Below, piece after piece: positions 2,396 through 16,834 of a stretch of 64,000 nt of DNA. How positions within the stretch are numbered: the first letter of the stretch is position 1; every line of letters begins with the position of its first letter. A model generated the notes under the pieces. The model saw only the letters and a program-made list of their open reading frames with translations, was not told where the DNA came from and searched no databases. Origin of the DNA: Stakelama sediminis (GTDB lineage: Bacteria > Pseudomonadota > Alphaproteobacteria > Sphingomonadales > Sphingomonadaceae); the NCBI RefSeq assembly GCF_014199335.1, contig NZ_JACIJI010000003.1, positions 1 through 64,000 of the forward strand. Reading direction: 5' to 3'. The translations under genes and the position numbers were made by a program.

Positions 2396-2544
2396 GCGTT
2401 GCCGAACGCCTAATGCACCGCTTGTCGGGAGGAAACACGTCCGGCGGGATGCGTGCCCCCCTCCCTTTACAGAAGATTTACCACATTGCGGCACAAGGCA
2501 GGGTGAGTAAACGCGGCTAACCGGCCGCACAGGGGATTGAACCT

Positions 2545-3819
2545 ATGGACAGCGCCCGCGGAATCGAAGACCGGATGGACCATGACGATGTCGATGACGG
2601 CAACGACGCGGTTGCCGATTCGCCACTGGAAATCGGTACGGACGAGCGGCGCATGCATGTGCGCGCCTATAATCACTGGGTATCGCTGCTGAAGGGGCGC
2701 ACCTATCCGTCGATCGACGACCTGAATCCGGAAAACATCGCTGATTTCGGTCCGCATAGTGTGCTGCTGGATTTTACGCAGGGGCTGGAAAACCCGGCGA
2801 TTCGCTTTCTCGGCGTGGCCCTGCGCGAAGAATGCGGCGTGGATATCGGGATCGACCATATCGCCGAAGTGCCGAGCCGGTCGCTGCTGTCACGGCTGAC
2901 CGATCACTATCTGCAGATTATCGCCAACCGCGCGCCCATCGGATTCGAAGCCGAATTTATCGGCCAGCGCGGCCACAACACGCTGTATCGCGGCATTTTG
3001 ATGCCGTTTTCGTCGGACGGCGAGGCAATCGACTTCATTTACGGCGTCATCAACTGGAAGGAACTGGTCGACGCCGAAACCCAGGCGAAGCTGAATAGTG
3101 AAATTGAGGAAGCGCGCAAAACGGCGCCGCGCACGCCGCTAAGCACGGCTGTCTGGGCCGATGGCCCCGACATTGCTTCCGATCAGGAAAGAAAAGAGAC
3201 GCAGGACGACGACACCGCATCGGCATCGGACACGACGCCGCTTGCCGACCGGCTGATGCTTGCGCGTGAGACCGCAGCCGCGGTGCGCGCAGCCGATACG
3301 CGATCGCGTGCCGCGCTGTATCGCGCGTTGAGCCGGGCCTATGACTTTTCGCTGGCTGCCGAGGCCGAGCCGGAAAGCTATACCGCCCTGCTCGAACAGG
3401 CGCAGCTGAAGGTTCAGGAACGTGCGCCGATGACCCCGGTCGTCAAACTGGTTTTCGGCAGCGATTACGACAAGGCGCGAATCACCGAATTCGCAGCCGC
3501 ATTGTCGCACGGCAAACGGCTTCAGGTGCCCCAGGGCCGTTTTGGCGATCTGCTCAACGAAACCGATGGCGGGTTGAAGGCGCTGGTCAAGGCGGAGCGT
3601 GCCGCGCGCCGCCCTGCGCCCAGGCCCGACCGCTATGAACGCGCGCTGGCGACGCTCAGGGCGCGTCCGGCGCTGGCGCATGTACCGGTTGGAGCGGGCG
3701 ATTCGGAATTCGTGCTGCTGCTGGCTCGCAAAGGCGATGACGGCGCGGTGGACATCGTCGCACGCGTCGACAAGGCGGATGCACTGATCAAGCAGGCAGT
3801 TCGCCGAGTCGCAGGCTGA
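2545..3819 (+). CDS. PAS-domain (PAS_5-like) protein
   Basis: A 424-residue soluble protein. Residues about 30-175 resemble the PAS_5 family seen in alphaproteobacteria (HVRAYNHWVSLLKGR near 34-48, then DLNPENIADF and later FIYGVINWKEL). This is a sensory or ligand-binding fold of unknown signal. The rest (about 215-424) is a charged, Ala-rich, mostly helical region with no recognised domain. There is no membrane segment, HTH or kinase module. The start ATG 2545 follows a purine-rich AGGGGA. It lies just outside the tRNA and faces the glutamate dehydrogenase gene in the same direction, 61 bases upstream. Signal and partner are unknown. Confidence 0.75.
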   Translation: MDSARGIEDRMDHDDVDDGNDAVADSPLEIGTDERRMHVRAYNHWVSLLKGRTYPSIDDLNPENIADFGPHSVLLDFTQGLENPAIRFLGVALREECGVDIGIDHIAEVPSRSLLSRLTDHYLQIIANRAPIGFEAEFIGQRGHNTLYRGILMPFSSDGEAIDFIYGVINWKELVDAETQAKLNSEIEEARKTAPRTPLSTAVWADGPDIASDQERKETQDDDTASASDTTPLADRLMLARETAAAVRAADTRSRAALYRALSRAYDFSLAAEAEPESYTALLEQAQLKVQERAPMTPVVKLVFGSDYDKARITEFAAALSHGKRLQVPQGRFGDLLNETDGGLKALVKAERAARRPAPRPDRYERALATLRARPALAHVPVGAGDSEFVLLLARKGDDGAVDIVARVDKADALIKQAVRRVAG

Positions 3820-3880
3820 AGAATCCCGCACTCTGTCGACAGGGCTTGAGCAAGCGCGCAAGCAGGCGCATAGGCGCGCC

Positions 3881-6800
3881 ATGACGAAGCAAAGCAGAAA
3901 GTCGCTGTCACAGGCGTTCGCGGCGCGGCTGGTCGAAGACGCGCTACCAGGAGAGCTTGAGGGATTTGAATCGCAGGAGCGTGCCGATGCGGCGCGGTTT
4001 GTCGCCGATACGGCGGCAATACGGCCCGACGGGACACCGGCGATCGCCCTCGATACCTTTACGCAGGGGCGACGGCGACACATGCGTCTGGCCGTCATCA
4101 ATGACGACATGCCGTTTCTGGTCGACTCGATCGCAGCGACCATCGGTGCACATAATATTGCCATCGACCGCATTCTCCATCCGGTGATCAAGGTCAGCCG
4201 CACGAAGGACGGCAAGCTGGAATCGATCGGCGAGGGATCGCCCGAATCGATGGTCTATATCGAAATGGAGCGCGCCGACGCCAAGCCGCGTCGCCTGCTG
4301 ATCGACGAACTCAACGAAAATCTGCTCCATGCACGCCATGCCGTCGAAGACTGGCACGCGATGGAAGCACTGATGATCGAAGATGCGGATCGCATGGAAA
4401 ACAGCGAGGGCGCTGCCCTGTTGCGCTGGTTTCTCGACCGTAATTTCACATTGCTGGGCCATGAAAGCTGGTCGCCGGACGGCAAGTTAACCAACCGGCT
4501 CGGCCTTGCCCGCGACGCGCTGAACATCCCGCTGCTCGCCGATACGTCGCGACAGCGCGCGTTCGACTGGATCCAGAAGGGCGGTGAATGCCCGTTACTG
4601 CTGAAATCGAATTTCATTTCGACCGTGCATCGCCGGGCGCCGCTTGACCTGATCCTTGTCCCTGAACGCGAAGACGGCACATTGACGGGCATCTCCATCC
4701 ATGCCGGTTTGTGGACCAGTGCCGCGATGCATGCCGATCCGGGCGACGTACCGGTTCTACGCTCGCGTCTGGCAACGCTTGAAAAACAGTTCGGCTTCGA
4801 CCCCAAGGGGCATACCGGCAAGGCACTGGCGCACGCGCTGACAGAATTGCCCCATGATTTGACGACAGCCTTCACCGCGGACGATCTGGAAACGCTGGCG
4901 CTGACCTCCATGTCGATCGCGGATCGTCCGCGCTCGCGCCTGATCTTGATCCGTAGCGCGCTGGGGCGGCACCTGTTTGCATTTGTCTGGCTCCCACGCG
5001 ACGAACTGTCGACCGGGCGGCGTCTGGCCATCGGCGAAATGCTGATGGAAACGGCCAATGCCGATCTGCTGAGCTGGTCGATCTCGCTGGAAGACGGGGT
5101 AGTCGCGCTGCTGCGCTATACACTCGACCTGCGTGGCGATGCACGGATGCCCGACGCCGAGGCGCTGAACGACCGGCTGGAACGCATGATGCGCGGCTGG
5201 CAGTCCGCCGTGGAAGCGGAAATCGCGGAAATCGATCCCGCGCGCGCCACCCGTCTGGCGCTGCGTTATGCGCAGGCATTCCCGACCAATTACCGCAATT
5301 CCAACGACCCGGCAGAGGCTGCACGCGACATATTGCGCCTCGCCGATCTTGAATCCGATCAGGACCGGGCGGTGCGGATCATCCGCGGGGACTCCGATAC
5401 CGAAAACGGCCGGTTGCGGATCAAGCTGTATCGGCTGGGCGGTGCACTGGCACTTTCCGATGCGGTTCCGGTATTCGAAAATTTCGGATTACGCGTGCTG
5501 GAAGAAGTCCCCACGCAGATGGGCGATGAGGCCAACGGCTTCATCCACGATTTCGAGGTGGCGCTGGCGGACGGCAATGAACCGGCGCAGCCGCTAGACC
5601 TGCCCGTGATTGAGGGCGCGATTGCCGCAGTGCTGGAAAACCATGCCGAAAACGATGTGTTCAACCGGCTGATCGTCGAGACCGGAATGAAGCCGGATGC
5701 CGTAGTGCTGTTGCGGGCATGGTTCCGTTATCTGCGTCAGACCGGCATGTCCTATGGTTTAAGCACGGTGGTCGACGCGCTGCGTGGCGCCCCCGACGTC
5801 GCCAACGGGCTGATCAAACGGTTCGGCGCGCACCATGACCCGGCATTGCGCAAGGATGCGGAGACGCTGGCCAAAACAGCGGACGAGATCATCGAGAACG
5901 GGCTGGTCGCAGTTTCCGCCATCGATGACGACCGCATCCTGCGCGCCTATCGCGGCGTGGTGCAGGCAACGTTGCGGACCAACGCCTTTGCCCCCGCAGC
6001 CCAGGAAGCGCTGGCGTTCAAGCTCGACAGCGCCAGGATTCCGAACCTGCCGCAACCGCTGCCATGGCGGGAGATTTTCGTCTATTCGCCGCGGGTGGAA
6101 GGCATTCATCTGCGCGCCGGCCCGGTGGCACGCGGCGGGCTACGCTGGTCCGACCGGCGCGACGATTTCCGCACCGAAATCCTCGGCCTGATGAAGGCGC
6201 AGCGCGTGAAGAACGCAGTGATCGTGCCGACAGGGGCCAAGGGCGGCTTCTATCCCAAACAGCTCCCTTCCCCCGCCACCAGCCGCGAAGCGTGGTTCGA
6301 AGAAGGCAAGGAAAGCTATCGCATTTTCATCCGCACGCTGTTGTCGATCACCGACAATATCGTCGACGGCAAGGTGGTCCATCCCGCCGATGTCGTCGTG
6401 CATGACGGCGAAGACCCTTATTTCGTCGTTGCCGCCGATAAAGGCACAGCAACCTTTTCCGACGTCGCCAACCAGATCGCGACCGACCGCGATTTCTGGC
6501 TGGGCGATGCCTTCGCCAGCGGTGGCAGCCACGGCTATGACCACAAGGCGATGGGCATCACCGCGCGCGGCGGCTGGGTATCCGTGCAGCGCCATTTCCT
6601 CGAAATGGGCGTCGATGTGCAGACCGATCCGGTCAGCGTCGTCGGCTGCGGCGACATGTCGGGCGACGTATTCGGCAACGGCATGCTGCTGAGCCGGGCA
6701 ATCCGCTTGCAGGCCGCATTCGATCACCGCCATATCTTCCTCGACCCCGATCCCGACCCCGAAACGAGCTGGGAAGAGCGTAAGCGTCTGTTCGACTTGC

Positions 6801-12782: not shown

Positions 12783-12916
12783 GGTCCGTCCTCCACGTTC
12801 AGATCGCTGCGATCACTGCTTTCATTGTGTCACCATGGCGGCGGGAACGATTGGATAAAAGCGTCATCGGCAGGGATCGATTGCAGCCGAGCGCCTGCCA
12901 TCCCATATGGCCGGGC

Positions 12917-13471
12917 ATGAGTGACAAATCGACGACATGGCACGGGACGACCATCGTTTCCGTGCGGCGCAGCGGCAAGGTGGTGATTGCGGGTGACGGA
13001 CAGGTCACCGCCGGCCAGACGATCATGAAACCCAATGCACGGAAGGTCCGCCCGCTGGGCGACGGCAAGGTGATCGCCGGGTTTGCAGGGGCGACGGCGG
13101 ATGCCTTTACCCTGTTCGAGCGGCTGGAGAGCAAGCTGGAACGCCATCAGGGCCAGTTGCTGCGTGCCGCGGTCGAGCTGGCGAAGGACTGGCGCACCGA
13201 CAAATATCTGCGCAATCTGGAGGCGATGCTGATCGTCGCCGACAAGGATGTGACGCTGGTCGTCACAGGCAATGGCGACGTGCTGGAACCCGAAGGCGGC
13301 ATCGCGGCAATCGGATCGGGCGGCAATTACGCCGTCGCCGCCGCCCGCGCACTGGTCGAATATGAAAAGGATGCCGAAACCATCTGCCGCAAGGCGATGA
13401 AGATCGCCGCCGATGTCTGCGTCTACACCAACGACAATCTGACCATCGAGACTCTGGATAGTGATAGCTGA
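12917..13471 (+). CDS. hslV: ATP-dependent protease subunit HslV (ClpQ)
   Basis: The 184-residue proteolytic subunit of the HslUV protease, an N-terminal-nucleophile threonine protease of proteasome-beta fold. ATG 12917 gives the usual short propeptide ending in WHG, so Thr11 (in TTIVSVRR) becomes the catalytic N-terminal residue. KPNARKVR and [14 protein letters not shown] are family signatures. It forms dodecamers capped by HslU. A longer in-frame start at 12827 gives an N-terminus unlike the family and is rejected. The last codons overlap the start of the DAAO-like gene by 11 bases. hslU follows only after that gene. Confidence 0.96.
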
Positions 13472-14597
13472 GGCAGCCGCTCTGCCGTTGCTGAACCGCC
13501 GTGCCATGCTCGCCGGAGCAGGCGGATCGATGCTGCTGGGCGGGTGTACGGCGACAGGCATGGGCCAGCGGCCGGGGCTTTCACCGGCACGCTGCCTTCC
13601 GAAGCCGGACGTGTCGCGTGACCGGCTGATCCGTCAGCTTGTCGGGCTGCGTCCCTGGCGCCCATCGGGCTTTGTCGTGCGTGCCGAAGCGTTCGGCGAC
13701 AAGCGGCTGGTGCATAATTACGGTCATGGCGGATCGGGCATCACGCTGAGCTGGGGCACGTCCAGACTGGCAATCGACCTTGGCCTGCCCGGATATCAGG
13801 GCAGTGTCGCGGTACTGGGTGCGGGCGTGATCGGGCTGACCACCGCGCGGCTGGTGCAGCAGGCGGGGTTTCCGGTCACCCTTTATGCCAAGGCACTGCC
13901 CCCCGATACGACGTCGAACATCGCGGGCGGTCAGTGGTTTCCGTCGCTACTTTACAAACGCTCGCAGCTCACGCCGCAATTCGCCGCGCAGCTCAAGCAG
14001 GCGGCGGCCTATGCCTATCAACGCTATCAGATCATGATCGGGGAGGAATATGGCATCCGCTGGATGACCAACTATTCGCTGTCCGACCAACCATCCGACC
14101 CCAGCCGCAAGGACGAATTGCTGGCGTCCATGCTGCCCGAATCCCGGCCCGTTCCCAGAAGCGAACATGATTTCGGCTATGCCTATGTCGAACAGTTCGA
14201 CGGCATGCTGATCGAACCGCCGCGATTCTTGCGAGCGATGCTGCGCGATATCCGGCTGGCCGGCGGCGAGGTGGTGGTCCGCGATTTCGCCACGCCTGCC
14301 GACGTGTCGGCTCTGTCCGAAGGGTTGGTCTTCAACTGTACCGGGCTGGGCGCACGCGATCTGTTCGGCGATAGCGAGTTGCAGCCGATGCGGGGCCAGC
14401 TTGCCGTACTGCTGCCGCAGCCAGAGGTGCGATATGCGCTCGAAACCTCAGGCGGCGCCTATATGTTTTCGCGCTCAGACGGGCTGCTGCTGGGCGGCAC
14501 TGCCGATATCGGCGACGACTCGCTCACCCCCGATCCGGGAACCACCAGCGCGTTGATCCGCGAGCATCAAAGGATCGCCGTTCGTATGCGCTGTTGA
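13461..14597 (+). CDS. FAD-dependent D-amino-acid-oxidase-like protein with permuted motif order
   Basis: A 378-residue protein with every D-amino-acid oxidase hallmark but in rotated order. GLRPWRPSG (about 62-70) and [15 protein letters not shown] (85-99), which normally lie at the C-terminus, come before the FAD Rossmann motif VLGAGVIGL (118-126), normally at the N-terminus. Then follow [10 protein letters not shown] (about 154-163), FNCTGLGAR and the LGGT strand, and the protein ends where the GLRP segment would normally follow. The GTG start at 13461 overlaps hslV and includes [10 protein letters not shown] (Tat-like) and lipobox LLGGC (Cys29), so it may be a Tat-exported lipoprotein. 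ATG 13506 would lose the RR pair. It sits between hslV and hslU. FAD-dependent amine oxidation is likely; the substrate is unknown. Confidence 0.85.
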
Positions 14598-14664
14598 TCC
14601 CGGCACACGCCATCCCGATATGCCTGTCCGGCAGGCTCCCCTGACCATGATGACCGAGTATGGA

Positions 14665-15963
14665 ATGAACGACACACTGACCCCCAAGGCAATCGTCACT
14701 GCGCTGGATGCGCATATTATCGGCCAGAAGGACGCCAAGCGCGCCGTCGCGGTCGCGCTGCGCAACCGCTGGCGCCGCCAGAAGCTGGCGCCCGAACTGC
14801 GCGATGAGGTGACGCCCAAGAACATCCTGATGATCGGGCCGACGGGCTGCGGCAAGACGGAGATTTCACGTCGTCTGGCAAAGCTGGCCGATGCGCCGTT
14901 CGTGAAGGTGGAAGCAACCAAATTTACCGAGGTCGGCTATGTCGGTCGCGACGTCGAACAGATTGCCCGCGATCTGGTCGAGGAATCGATCCGGCTGGAA
15001 AAGGAACGCCGTCGTGCCGCGGTGAAGGACAAGGCCGAAGAGGCTGCGTTTGACCGCCTGCTCGACGCACTGACCGGCAAGGATGCAAGCCAGGCGACGC
15101 GCGAAAGCTTTCGTCAGCGGATCGCCGACGGCCATATGGACGATACCGAGATCGAGATCGAGCTGGAAGCCGCACCGCAGATGCCGTTCGAAATTCCCGG
15201 CGGCGGCAATGTCGGGATGATCAACCTGTCCGACATGATGGGCAAGGCGTTCGGCGGCGCACAGATGAAACGCCGCAAGCTGACCGTCCATGCCGCGTTC
15301 GAAAAGCTGGTCGAGGAAGAAGCGGACAAGCGCCTCGATCAGGATGAGGTCAGCCGGGTGGCGCTGGCCGATGCGGAAGCCAACGGCATCGTCTTCCTTG
15401 ATGAAATCGACAAGATCGCGGTCAGCGACGTGCGTGGCGGATCGGTGAGCCGGGAGGGCGTGCAGCGCGACCTGTTGCCGCTGATCGAGGGCACGACGGT
15501 TTCCACCAAATACGGGCCGATGAAGACCGACCATATCCTGTTCATCGCGTCGGGTGCCTTTCATGTCGCCAAGCCGAGTGACCTGCTGCCCGAGCTTCAG
15601 GGGCGGCTGCCCATCCGGGTCGAGTTACAGGCGCTGACGGAGAAGGATTTCGTGTCCATCCTATCCGACACGCGTGCGTCGCTGCCTGAACAATATAAGG
15701 CGCTGATCGGCACTGAAGGGGTCACGCTGACCTTTACCGACGACGGTATCGACGCGGTGGCGCGGATCGCGGCGGAAGTGAATGCCGAGGTCGAGAATAT
15801 CGGCGCACGGCGGCTGCAGACGGTGATGGAGAAGTTGCTGGAGGAAATCAGTTTCGACGCCGAAGAGCGCAACGGCGAAACGCTGACGATCGACTCTGCC
15901 TATGTGGAAAAGCAATTGTCCAGCATCGCGCGCAATACAGATCTGAGCCGCTACGTTCTGTAA
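14665..15963 (+). CDS. hslU: ATP-dependent protease ATPase subunit HslU (ClpY)
   Basis: A 432-residue AAA+ unfoldase that feeds substrates to HslV. The N-terminus reads [17 protein letters not shown]. Walker A is GPTGCGKTE (about residues 57-65), the pore loop GYVGRD is near 92, Walker [10 protein letters not shown] is near 245, and sensor/arginine-finger regions follow with [18 protein letters not shown] near 390. The intermediate I-domain (about 110-230) is charged and helical, as in the family. The C-terminal SRYVL tail is the segment that docks into HslV. ATG 14665 best fits the family N-terminus; ATGs at 14647 and 14650 are alternatives. It ends 6 bases before a strong hairpin. Confidence 0.96.
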
Positions 15964-16007: not shown

Positions 16008-16421
16008 TCACCGCTTCTTCGGCAGTTGATATACGGTGAAGTTGCCGAGCTGGCAGAAGGCGGATGGAATGGACTCGCCCATGTTGCGCACCCGGAACTG
16101 ATCGTGGCGACAAAGCTGCGATCCGAACTGCTTCACGATCAGCGTCGAAGTCTCATCCAGCGAAGGGCATGGTCCAAGCAGGTTATTGCGATAGATTTTC
16201 CGCCCGTTGCGGTAGAGCAGGATGTGGTCGCCGATAATCTGAGGCCCGTCCATGAATTGCGGATCGATACATTCGGTCTGGCCGGTCTGCGTCGCGCCCT
16301 TCAGCGCATCGGCAAGTTCCTGTTTCGTCCGGGCGTGTTCGGCATCCTGCGAGCGGGCGGACGCGCACCCGGCCAGCGCGAGCACCGGCAACAGCGGTGC
16401 CATCAGCGTCAATGCACGCAT
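16008..16421 (-). CDS. putative lipoprotein, paralogue of the adjacent gene (DUF6491-like?)
   Basis: A 137-residue protein with a lipoprotein signal peptide (lipobox ALAGC, Cys19). The mature part shares with the neighbouring 16424-16834 product the order Cys..., G(R/N)(K/R)(I/V)YRN-L--(P/G)CP, then F-G-Q-C and a final C-LG-FT-Y. The four cysteines suggest disulfides in the periplasm. The pattern resembles DUF6491-type sphingomonad proteins, but this is by memory only. The start lies directly after the stop of the upstream paralogue, so they form one transcript. Function unknown. Confidence 0.75.
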   Translation of the reverse strand: MRALTLMAPLLPVLALAGCASARSQDAEHARTKQELADALKGATQTGQTECIDPQFMDGPQIIGDHILLYRNGRKIYRNNLLGPCPSLDETSTLIVKQFGSQLCRHDQFRVRNMGESIPSAFCQLGNFTVYQLPKKR

Positions 16422-16423
16422 CG

Positions 16424-16834
16424 TCAGGCCCCTTTCGATTTTGTATAGGGTGTGAATTCACCCAGCGCGCAGCTACCCGTCAGCATTCCGGTCGAACTAT
16501 CCCGGAAATTGACGATATCGCCTGAACAATATTGCGATCCATGGACCTGGAATACCGGAAATTCTCCGAAGCTGGCCCCCGGACAGCCGCCCGACAGATC
16601 ATTGCGATAGACGCGATTGCGATTGAACTTGAACAGCATGGTATCGGGGTAGGTGTCGATGTTCTGAACCATCGATACCGACACGCACGATGTCGGTTTG
16701 CCCGGTGTCAGCCCGGCCAGCGTCTTTTCCATCTCGGCACGCTGTTTAGCGCTGAATTTCTGCTGGGCGTCATCGTGCGTCGCCATGCTGCATCCGCTTA
16801 ACAGCAGCATCATGGGCAGAACATATCGCAGCAT
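16424..16834 (-). CDS. putative lipoprotein, first of a tandem pair
   Basis: A 136-residue protein with lipobox LLSGC (Cys15) after a short hydrophobic segment. It is then charged (about 20-45) and followed by the shared cysteine/YRN/LGxFTxY pattern found in the next gene. It is probably anchored in the outer or inner membrane facing the periplasm. A tandem duplication is likely because length, motif order and cysteine spacing agree. It lies downstream of gloB on the same strand, 37 bases away, and may be transcribed with it. Function unknown. Confidence 0.75.
   Translation of the reverse strand: MLRYVLPMMLLLSGCSMATHDDAQQKFSAKQRAEMEKTLAGLTPGKPTSCVSVSMVQNIDTYPDTMLFKFNRNRVYRNDLSGGCPGASFGEFPVFQVHGSQYCSGDIVNFRDSSTGMLTGSCALGEFTPYTKSKGA

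Follow-up and report, generated by a model that had tools for sequence, protein, structure and literature searches.

The 64,000-nucleotide stretch of the Stakelama sediminis genome analysed here (the window) contains an open reading frame (ORF) of 378 amino acids with a GTG start (13461-14597, + strand), of which the translation resembles D-amino-acid oxidase (DAAO), a textbook flavoenzyme that is used industrially. The motifs of that family occur in this protein in a rotated order. The question raised by the locus is whether the protein is a natural circular permutation of a DAAO-type chain, and, if so, where and on what the rearranged chain may act.

Gene and order of its segments

The coding sequence of the permuted DAAO-like flavoprotein was assigned by the ORF call and by the match to the Pfam DAO family (1.5e-33), which consisted of two stretches (the best, residues 116-369). 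With NCBIfam, no family reached its cut-off among the best 25 of 32 matches, and the match to ThiO was weak (53.6 bits; cut-off, 250.8). The genome search found a single copy of the permuted gene in S. sediminis. Purifying selection was indicated by the pairwise comparison with one relative (L082; 72% identity; dN 0.23, dS 0.94, dN/dS ~0.25), in which the 373 codons compared differed at 89 first, 64 second and 170 third positions.

The following features lie on the + strand. The motifs are GLRPWRP (residues 62-68; 13644..13664), the flavin-side motif HNYGHGGSG (residues 85-93; 13713..13739), VLGAGVIGL (residues 118-126), which includes the dinucleotide motif GAGVIG (GxGxxG; residues 120-125; 13818..13835), and LGGT (residues 344-347). 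Each DAAO segment is present once, and the order is rotated: the GxGxxG motif, N-terminal in canonical proteins, comes after the GLRP/HNYGHGG block, in which both GxRPxR (GLRPWR, residues 62-67) and YGHGGxG (YGHGGSG, residues 87-93) are found. The permuted block was assigned to residues 43-111 (13587..13793) with PDB sequence searches and profiles; its residues 50-106 align with about residues 269-328 of human DAAO, i.e., with the canonical C-terminal part. The helix that used to be C-terminal is followed by a short linker (residues 109-115; 13785..13805), which leads into the first Rossmann strand, and the FAD-binding Rossmann and substrate domains (residues 116-375; 13806..14585), assigned by sequence, fold and profiles, correspond to about residues 3-269 of DAAO. 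The first-pass annotation had placed the block before GAGVIGL, with all parts present once, and had read this as a circular permutation; the motif positions bear out the arrangement, and the reading is supported by the sequence searches, the profiles, the fold of the main part and the spread across phyla. The Tat/lipoprotein motif, the wide distribution of the family and the position between hslV and hslU, all described below, go beyond that annotation.

In the phmmer search of PDB chains, human DASPO was matched in two out-of-order stretches (query residues 115-362 on residues 14-260, and 45-103 on 268-329). When residues 45-112 were used alone (68-residue query), 16 distinct PDB chain sequences were matched (E up to 0.1; best E, 2.2e-7), all of which are named DAAO or DASPO and were matched in their C-terminal parts (e.g., residues 271-329 of human DASPO); the resemblance is not due to chance. 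Two profiles, one for the block and one for the main part, were then made from the family alignment A1 (60 rows, from 60 of the 81 loci). With the former, all nine canonical-order proteins (seven bacterial proteins, human DAAO and human DASPO; E about 4e-12 to 3e-17) were matched in their C-terminal part, and 106 ORFs in 105 loci were matched in their N-terminal part. Note that the S. sediminis locus is counted twice among the 106; 105 distinct permuted ORFs are counted in the following, a few loci being near-identical, and L093 was left out of the count because its main part is in a broken frame. None of 115 ORFs had a second copy of the block, i.e., no duplication intermediate with the block at both ends was found. 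No chain of the permuted order was found in PDB with the sequence searches; the fold alignments were sequential and could miss one.

As for the end of the chain, the first-pass annotation had it stop after the LGGT strand, just where GLRP would normally come. This is slightly loose, as the chain ends ~12 residues short of the GLRP position (residue 281 of human DAAO). It continues for 31 residues beyond LGGT, including helix 359-375, over which the alignment with DAAO extends to residue 269. The cut in the canonical chain thus falls at about residue 269, behind the helix next after the LGGT strand; the main part stops at the position of DAAO residue 269, and the N-terminal block resembles the rest of DAAO.

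The full-length model predicted by AlphaFold2 with alignment A1 had a mean pLDDT of 91.4 and a pTM of 0.87 (pLDDT of 97-99 at residues 51-120, 82 at residues 41-50, and 50-63 in the signal region). Helix 90-108 of the model is joined to the first Rossmann strand (116-119) via 7 residues, and residues 112-375 have the DAAO fold in this predicted model: DAAO and DASPO chains occupied ranks 1-33 with Foldseek, and VIA-align placed residues 112-375 on residues 2-264 of human DASPO (Z 24.7, 2.1 A) and residues 114-375 on residues 1-269 of DAAO (Z 23.5-24.0, 1.8-2.1 A). The fold alignment spans model residues 110-376 only, and the block could therefore be a separate small domain that was fused to a truncated DAAO and does not take the canonical C-terminal place, which the first-pass annotation had named as an outcome that would speak against its reading. 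However, the block matches the very DAAO segment that is absent from the C-terminus, its Arg and the HxYGHGG residues are kept in 105/105 permuted proteins, second copies are missing, and the pLDDT of 97-99 seen from residue 51 in context compares with a mean of 66.9 (pTM 0.34) when a 73-residue piece with the block was predicted alone, a poor fold as expected for a non-independent domain. A separate domain is thus disfavoured, and we consider it highly improbable; block 43-111 would then lie in its canonical three-dimensional place. The protein is almost certainly a natural circular permutation of the DAAO/DASPO lineage.

Distribution and origin of the rotated order

A scan of contigs with one genome per species gave at least 582 relatives, of which 80 were kept and examined. 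The rotated order was found in 80/80 of them, which is no measure of the frequency of the order, since they were picked by similarity to the permuted query. The record labels assign 49 of them to Pseudomonadota, 17 to Acidobacteriota, 7 to Gemmatimonadota, 4 to Bacteroidota, and one each to Zixiibacteriota and Vulcanimicrobiota, with one unassigned (six phyla); many are metagenome bins. The search for members of the same order, suggested in the first-pass annotation, thus found them, and the rotated order is now seen in 105 loci. A sequence or assembly artefact was rejected and has a negligible probability, because the order is common to these loci, nearly all of which are from other genomes or records. 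Since the same rearranged form occurs in many other bacteria, the permutation seems to be genuine, natural and old, rather than a peculiarity of the S. sediminis genome.

Among 249 Pseudomonadota genomes, which were searched with 7 or 8 scored candidates each, the permuted form was found in 15 (E up to 1e-20). With a canonical profile of seven rows, these 15 genomes were matched again, together with a sixteenth, of which the protein reads as a glycine oxidase and was not matched by the block profile; thus, no canonical DAAO was seen in the 249 genomes at that threshold. Canonical forms do occur in Pseudomonadota, since a member on a Burkholderia glumae plasmid (L113) has the canonical order. 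The members examined from Tsukamurella, Nocardia, two Streptomyces, Streptantibioticus and Mycobacterium lentiflavum have it as well. A canonical query matched 37 Burkholderia and 10 Vibrio plasmid records, and the order was read in one of them (L113). Searching 99 genomes of Sphingomonadales gave 11 matches at 1e-30. Permuted members were also found on records of the plasmid collection, including those of Rhizobium, Bradyrhizobium, Kozakia, Niveispirillum and Nonomuraea; the member from Mesorhizobium is split.

Two loci showed peculiarities of their own. On the Mesorhizobium onobrychidis plasmid (L093, 1492-2555), the annotation of the permuted gene consists of two short CDSs that overlap, and the frame changes near the Rossmann motif; a pseudogene, a sequencing error and a real split are the candidates. 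L072 has tandem permuted genes (2507-3649 and 3836-4975), both with the Tat motif and the lipobox, and its contig is labelled Thalassovita, yet the protein groups with a Bacteroidota protein in the tree.

For tree reconstruction, the rows (49 of the 105 permuted and nine canonical proteins) were rearranged to the canonical order. Permuted and canonical proteins were on opposite sides of one branch (support, 100/99), for which one change is needed, and the same split was obtained with a 32-row unrooted subset. When five DAO-superfamily outgroups were added, four of which formed very long rows, the support fell to 46/62 for the permuted branch and to 90/91 for the canonical one; a single permutation event would be enough. 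Of the two orders, the canonical one is probably the older by parsimony, being that of other DAO-superfamily structures (judged from the aligned ranges). Duplication and fission-fusion are given as routes to circular permutation in PMC3320104. The exchange of two chain parts in saposin/swaposin, which the same source describes, is an event of the same kind in another protein family; no duplicated intermediate was seen among the 115 ORFs of the present set. Hereafter, the permuted proteins are grouped, under names given here, into I (rhizobial/Nonomuraea), II (with a Bacteroidota type, IIa, and a VCLRP type, IIb) and III (S. sediminis and the rest); L070 and L072 of IIa were placed on the tree, and L071, L078 and L079 were assigned to it by kinship.

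Putative export signal, active site and gene neighbourhood

The N-terminal signal (13461..13547, + strand), assigned by sequence, family rows and motif counts, consists of R13-R14, a hydrophobic stretch and a lipobox (LGGC) ending at C29. R13 is invariant, and R14 and C29 are kept at 90% or more, in the 60 alignment rows, and the motif test found a Tat motif with a lipobox (NRRAML...LLGGC) in the S. sediminis protein. The counts for the family were obtained with simple motifs rather than a signal-peptide predictor, in stop-to-stop frames with unverified starts: in group III, RR was found in 84/84, the simple Tat motif in 82 and Tat with a lipobox in 59; in group IIa, RR in 6/6 and a lipobox in 5; in group IIb, RR in 9/10 (the tenth has no upstream in-frame sequence) and a lipobox in 6. 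The Tat motif was found in 1/5 of group I; since this group is mostly without it, a permuted chain does not always go with export. Tat export fits proteins that bind FAD before they leave the cytoplasm, and these motifs make it quite probable as the route of the S. sediminis protein.

Active-site positions are given by human DAAO numbering, in which R283 binds the substrate carboxylate, Tyr228 is an active-site residue and Tyr224 belongs to the lid; PDB titles name Y228 and R283 variants of DAAO. From the family alignment and residue counts, the R283 equivalent (R64) is kept in 105/105 permuted proteins (84/84 in group III), as are each of the three GxGxxG glycines and the residues H, Y, G, H, G and G of HxYGHGG, including the equivalents of H307, Y309, H311 and G312. 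Tyr is present at the Tyr228 position (Y334 here, by alignment to human DAAO; 14460..14462, + strand) in 88/105, namely in 79/84 of group III, 5/5 of group I, 4/6 of group IIa and 0/10 of group IIb. The lid Tyr224 position is a gap in the S. sediminis protein, and is Tyr in just one of the nine canonical proteins (human DAAO). DAAO holds the substrate carboxylate with an Arg and a Tyr and passes a hydride to the flavin, and its imine product hydrolyses; the residues above fit with this way of working having been kept on the rotated chain. The protein is very probably a DAAO-type flavoenzyme, and a D-amino acid would be its substrate with a chance slightly better than even.

Group IIb (L089-L092, L096, L103-L106 and L108) is distinguished by the motifs VCLRPFR and WSLSWG. 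It keeps the substrate Arg in 10/10, and the first LGGT glycine is lost in 10/10 (nine Gln, one gap). This pattern suggests that its members may act on another substrate; since both Tyr228 and that glycine are missing from the group, a single substrate cannot serve for the whole permuted set.

The start of the gene shares 11 bases with the end of the upstream hslV ORF (12827..13471, + strand), and the hslU ORF (14620..15963, + strand) lies downstream, as seen from the ORF list and the flank scans. This setting is conserved in Sphingomonadales: the order hslV-gene-hslU was found in 20 of the 22 Sphingomonadales loci among the 80 relatives (hslU being cut by the contig end in L002), the exceptions being L014, which has hslV only and in which the contig ends shortly after the gene, and L009, which has neither in its flanks. 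Both genes were also found in six more Sphingomonadales loci (L082 and L084-L088), and several hundred bases separate hslV from the permuted gene in some loci (e.g., L008, L035 and L044). Such neighbours could point to a catalytically dead or structural relative with another role, for example one linked to the HslVU protease. Against this, the FAD and substrate residues are conserved, the dN/dS value is low at ~0.25, neither hslV nor hslU was matched in the flanks examined outside Sphingomonadales, and HslVU is cytoplasmic whereas the S. sediminis protein carries an export motif; we regard a dead relative as very unlikely. The group IIb Sphingomonadales loci (L089-L091) also had neither gene in their flanks. 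Beyond hslU in the window, two adjacent ORFs on the - strand (16008-16421 and 16424-16834; 137 and 136 amino acids) are lipoprotein-like and alike by eye.

Neighbours in general were scanned as 130 of 150 ORFs under a longest-ORF rule (the 20 left out were mostly very long or very short). The commonest neighbour family occurred in 4 of the 130 ORFs, and, among the 25 of 118 families listed, a YjgF/RidA-like family occurred in two and no recurring partner of D-amino-acid metabolism was found outside the hslV-hslU setting. Genes for a TPP-dependent enzyme adjoin the group I genes L094, L095 and L112, and by annotation also L093 (the organisms are Mesorhizobium, Nonomuraea, Rhizobium and Bradyrhizobium), and an FAD-binding oxidoreductase also adjoins the gene in Rhizobium (berberine-bridge type) and Bradyrhizobium; an uncharacterised pathway is suggested by this neighbourhood.

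Open frames with CxxCH were found within 1.5 kb in ten permuted loci; Pfam confirmed cytochrome c in L096 and L062, and the others are motif-only. On the Kozakia baliensis plasmid (L096, 1408-3068), a permuted member with the Tat motif is followed by the cytochrome c gene after 5 bases, and this cytochrome c is a possible electron acceptor. These frames, together with the missing equivalent of Tyr224 and the loss of Tyr228 in group IIb, would fit another function for the same permuted, exported fold, namely that of a periplasmic dehydrogenase of another amine, an N-substituted amino acid or a 2-hydroxy acid, which would pass electrons to cytochrome c without H2O2 formation. In group III, which includes S. 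sediminis, the retention of R283 (84/84) and Y228 (79/84) speaks against it, as does the CxxCH scan, which found nothing beside the Sphingomonadales genes, mostly set between hslV and hslU. Such a dehydrogenase is a less probable alternative to the function proposed below.

We favour, with moderate confidence, a Tat-exported, lipid-anchored periplasmic flavoenzyme of the permuted DAAO lineage that oxidises D-amino acids or similar amines; its export, FAD binding, substrate class and electron acceptor, like the place of the block in three dimensions, are inferred. The old C-terminal block (the GLRP strand, the HNYGHGG turn and the last helix) comes first and is connected through the linker of ~7 residues to the first Rossmann strand, with the twin-arginine signal and lipobox ahead of it. 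Folding and FAD binding would take place in the cytoplasm, before export by the Tat pathway, and a lipid anchor would then hold the protein so that it faces the periplasm. There, D-amino acids or similar amines would be oxidised at the alpha-amino group to the imine, with O2 (which would yield H2O2) or a respiratory carrier as the electron acceptor.

Relation to known enzymes and meaning

The nearest known structures are human DASPO (6rkf) and mammalian DAAO (1kif and 2du8), which share with the S. sediminis protein the fold of residues 112-375 (Z 24.7 and about 24, respectively), GxGxxG, GLRPxRP with the substrate Arg, the HxYGHG turn and the Tyr228 equivalent; the S. sediminis protein differs from them in the rotated order, in the Tat/lipoprotein motif and in sequence (~23-26% identity over the aligned part). 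The lid Tyr224 is missing from it and from DASPO alike. The canonical bacterial DAAO-like proteins sampled (L097-L100, L110, L111 and L113) share GLRP, HxYGHGG and the active-site Arg with the permuted members, but have GxGxxG first and the block last, and are on the other side of the 100/99 branch. Glycine oxidase ThiO and other DAO-superfamily proteins (4ysh and 1ng3; L129-L133) share the DAO fold and, for ThiO, the weak NCBIfam match, whereas they have the canonical order and low similarity, and no HNYGHGG block was recognised in L129.

According to PMC9844085, GxRPxR and YGHGGxG are conserved in bacterial DAAOs and are also found in some glycine oxidases, and the binding Tyr of DAAO is not universal; its main text contains no word beginning with 'permut'. 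Among the papers listed in searches of the open-access literature (subscription papers and preprints were outside its scope), none was on a permuted DAAO, and no enzyme assay of any permuted member was found. We conclude that the permuted DAAO belongs to a known family, of which it is a new and widely distributed form. The rotated form is easily overlooked, since at least one published search, that of PMC9844085, requires GxGxxG at the N-terminus.

The natural cut and join indicate where DAAO may tolerate new termini. As a tentative proposal, which we consider rather unlikely in its full extent, a single ancient permutation may have given rise to a large class of exported bacterial D-amino-acid oxidoreductases, which would have become the commoner form of DAAO in Pseudomonadota and would act in the periplasm, for example on cell-wall D-amino acids, and of which subgroups would have been retuned to other substrates and electron acceptors. 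With the rotated form, DAAO-like enzymes would come to include exported proteins in Pseudomonadota, Acidobacteriota, Gemmatimonadota and Bacteroidota.
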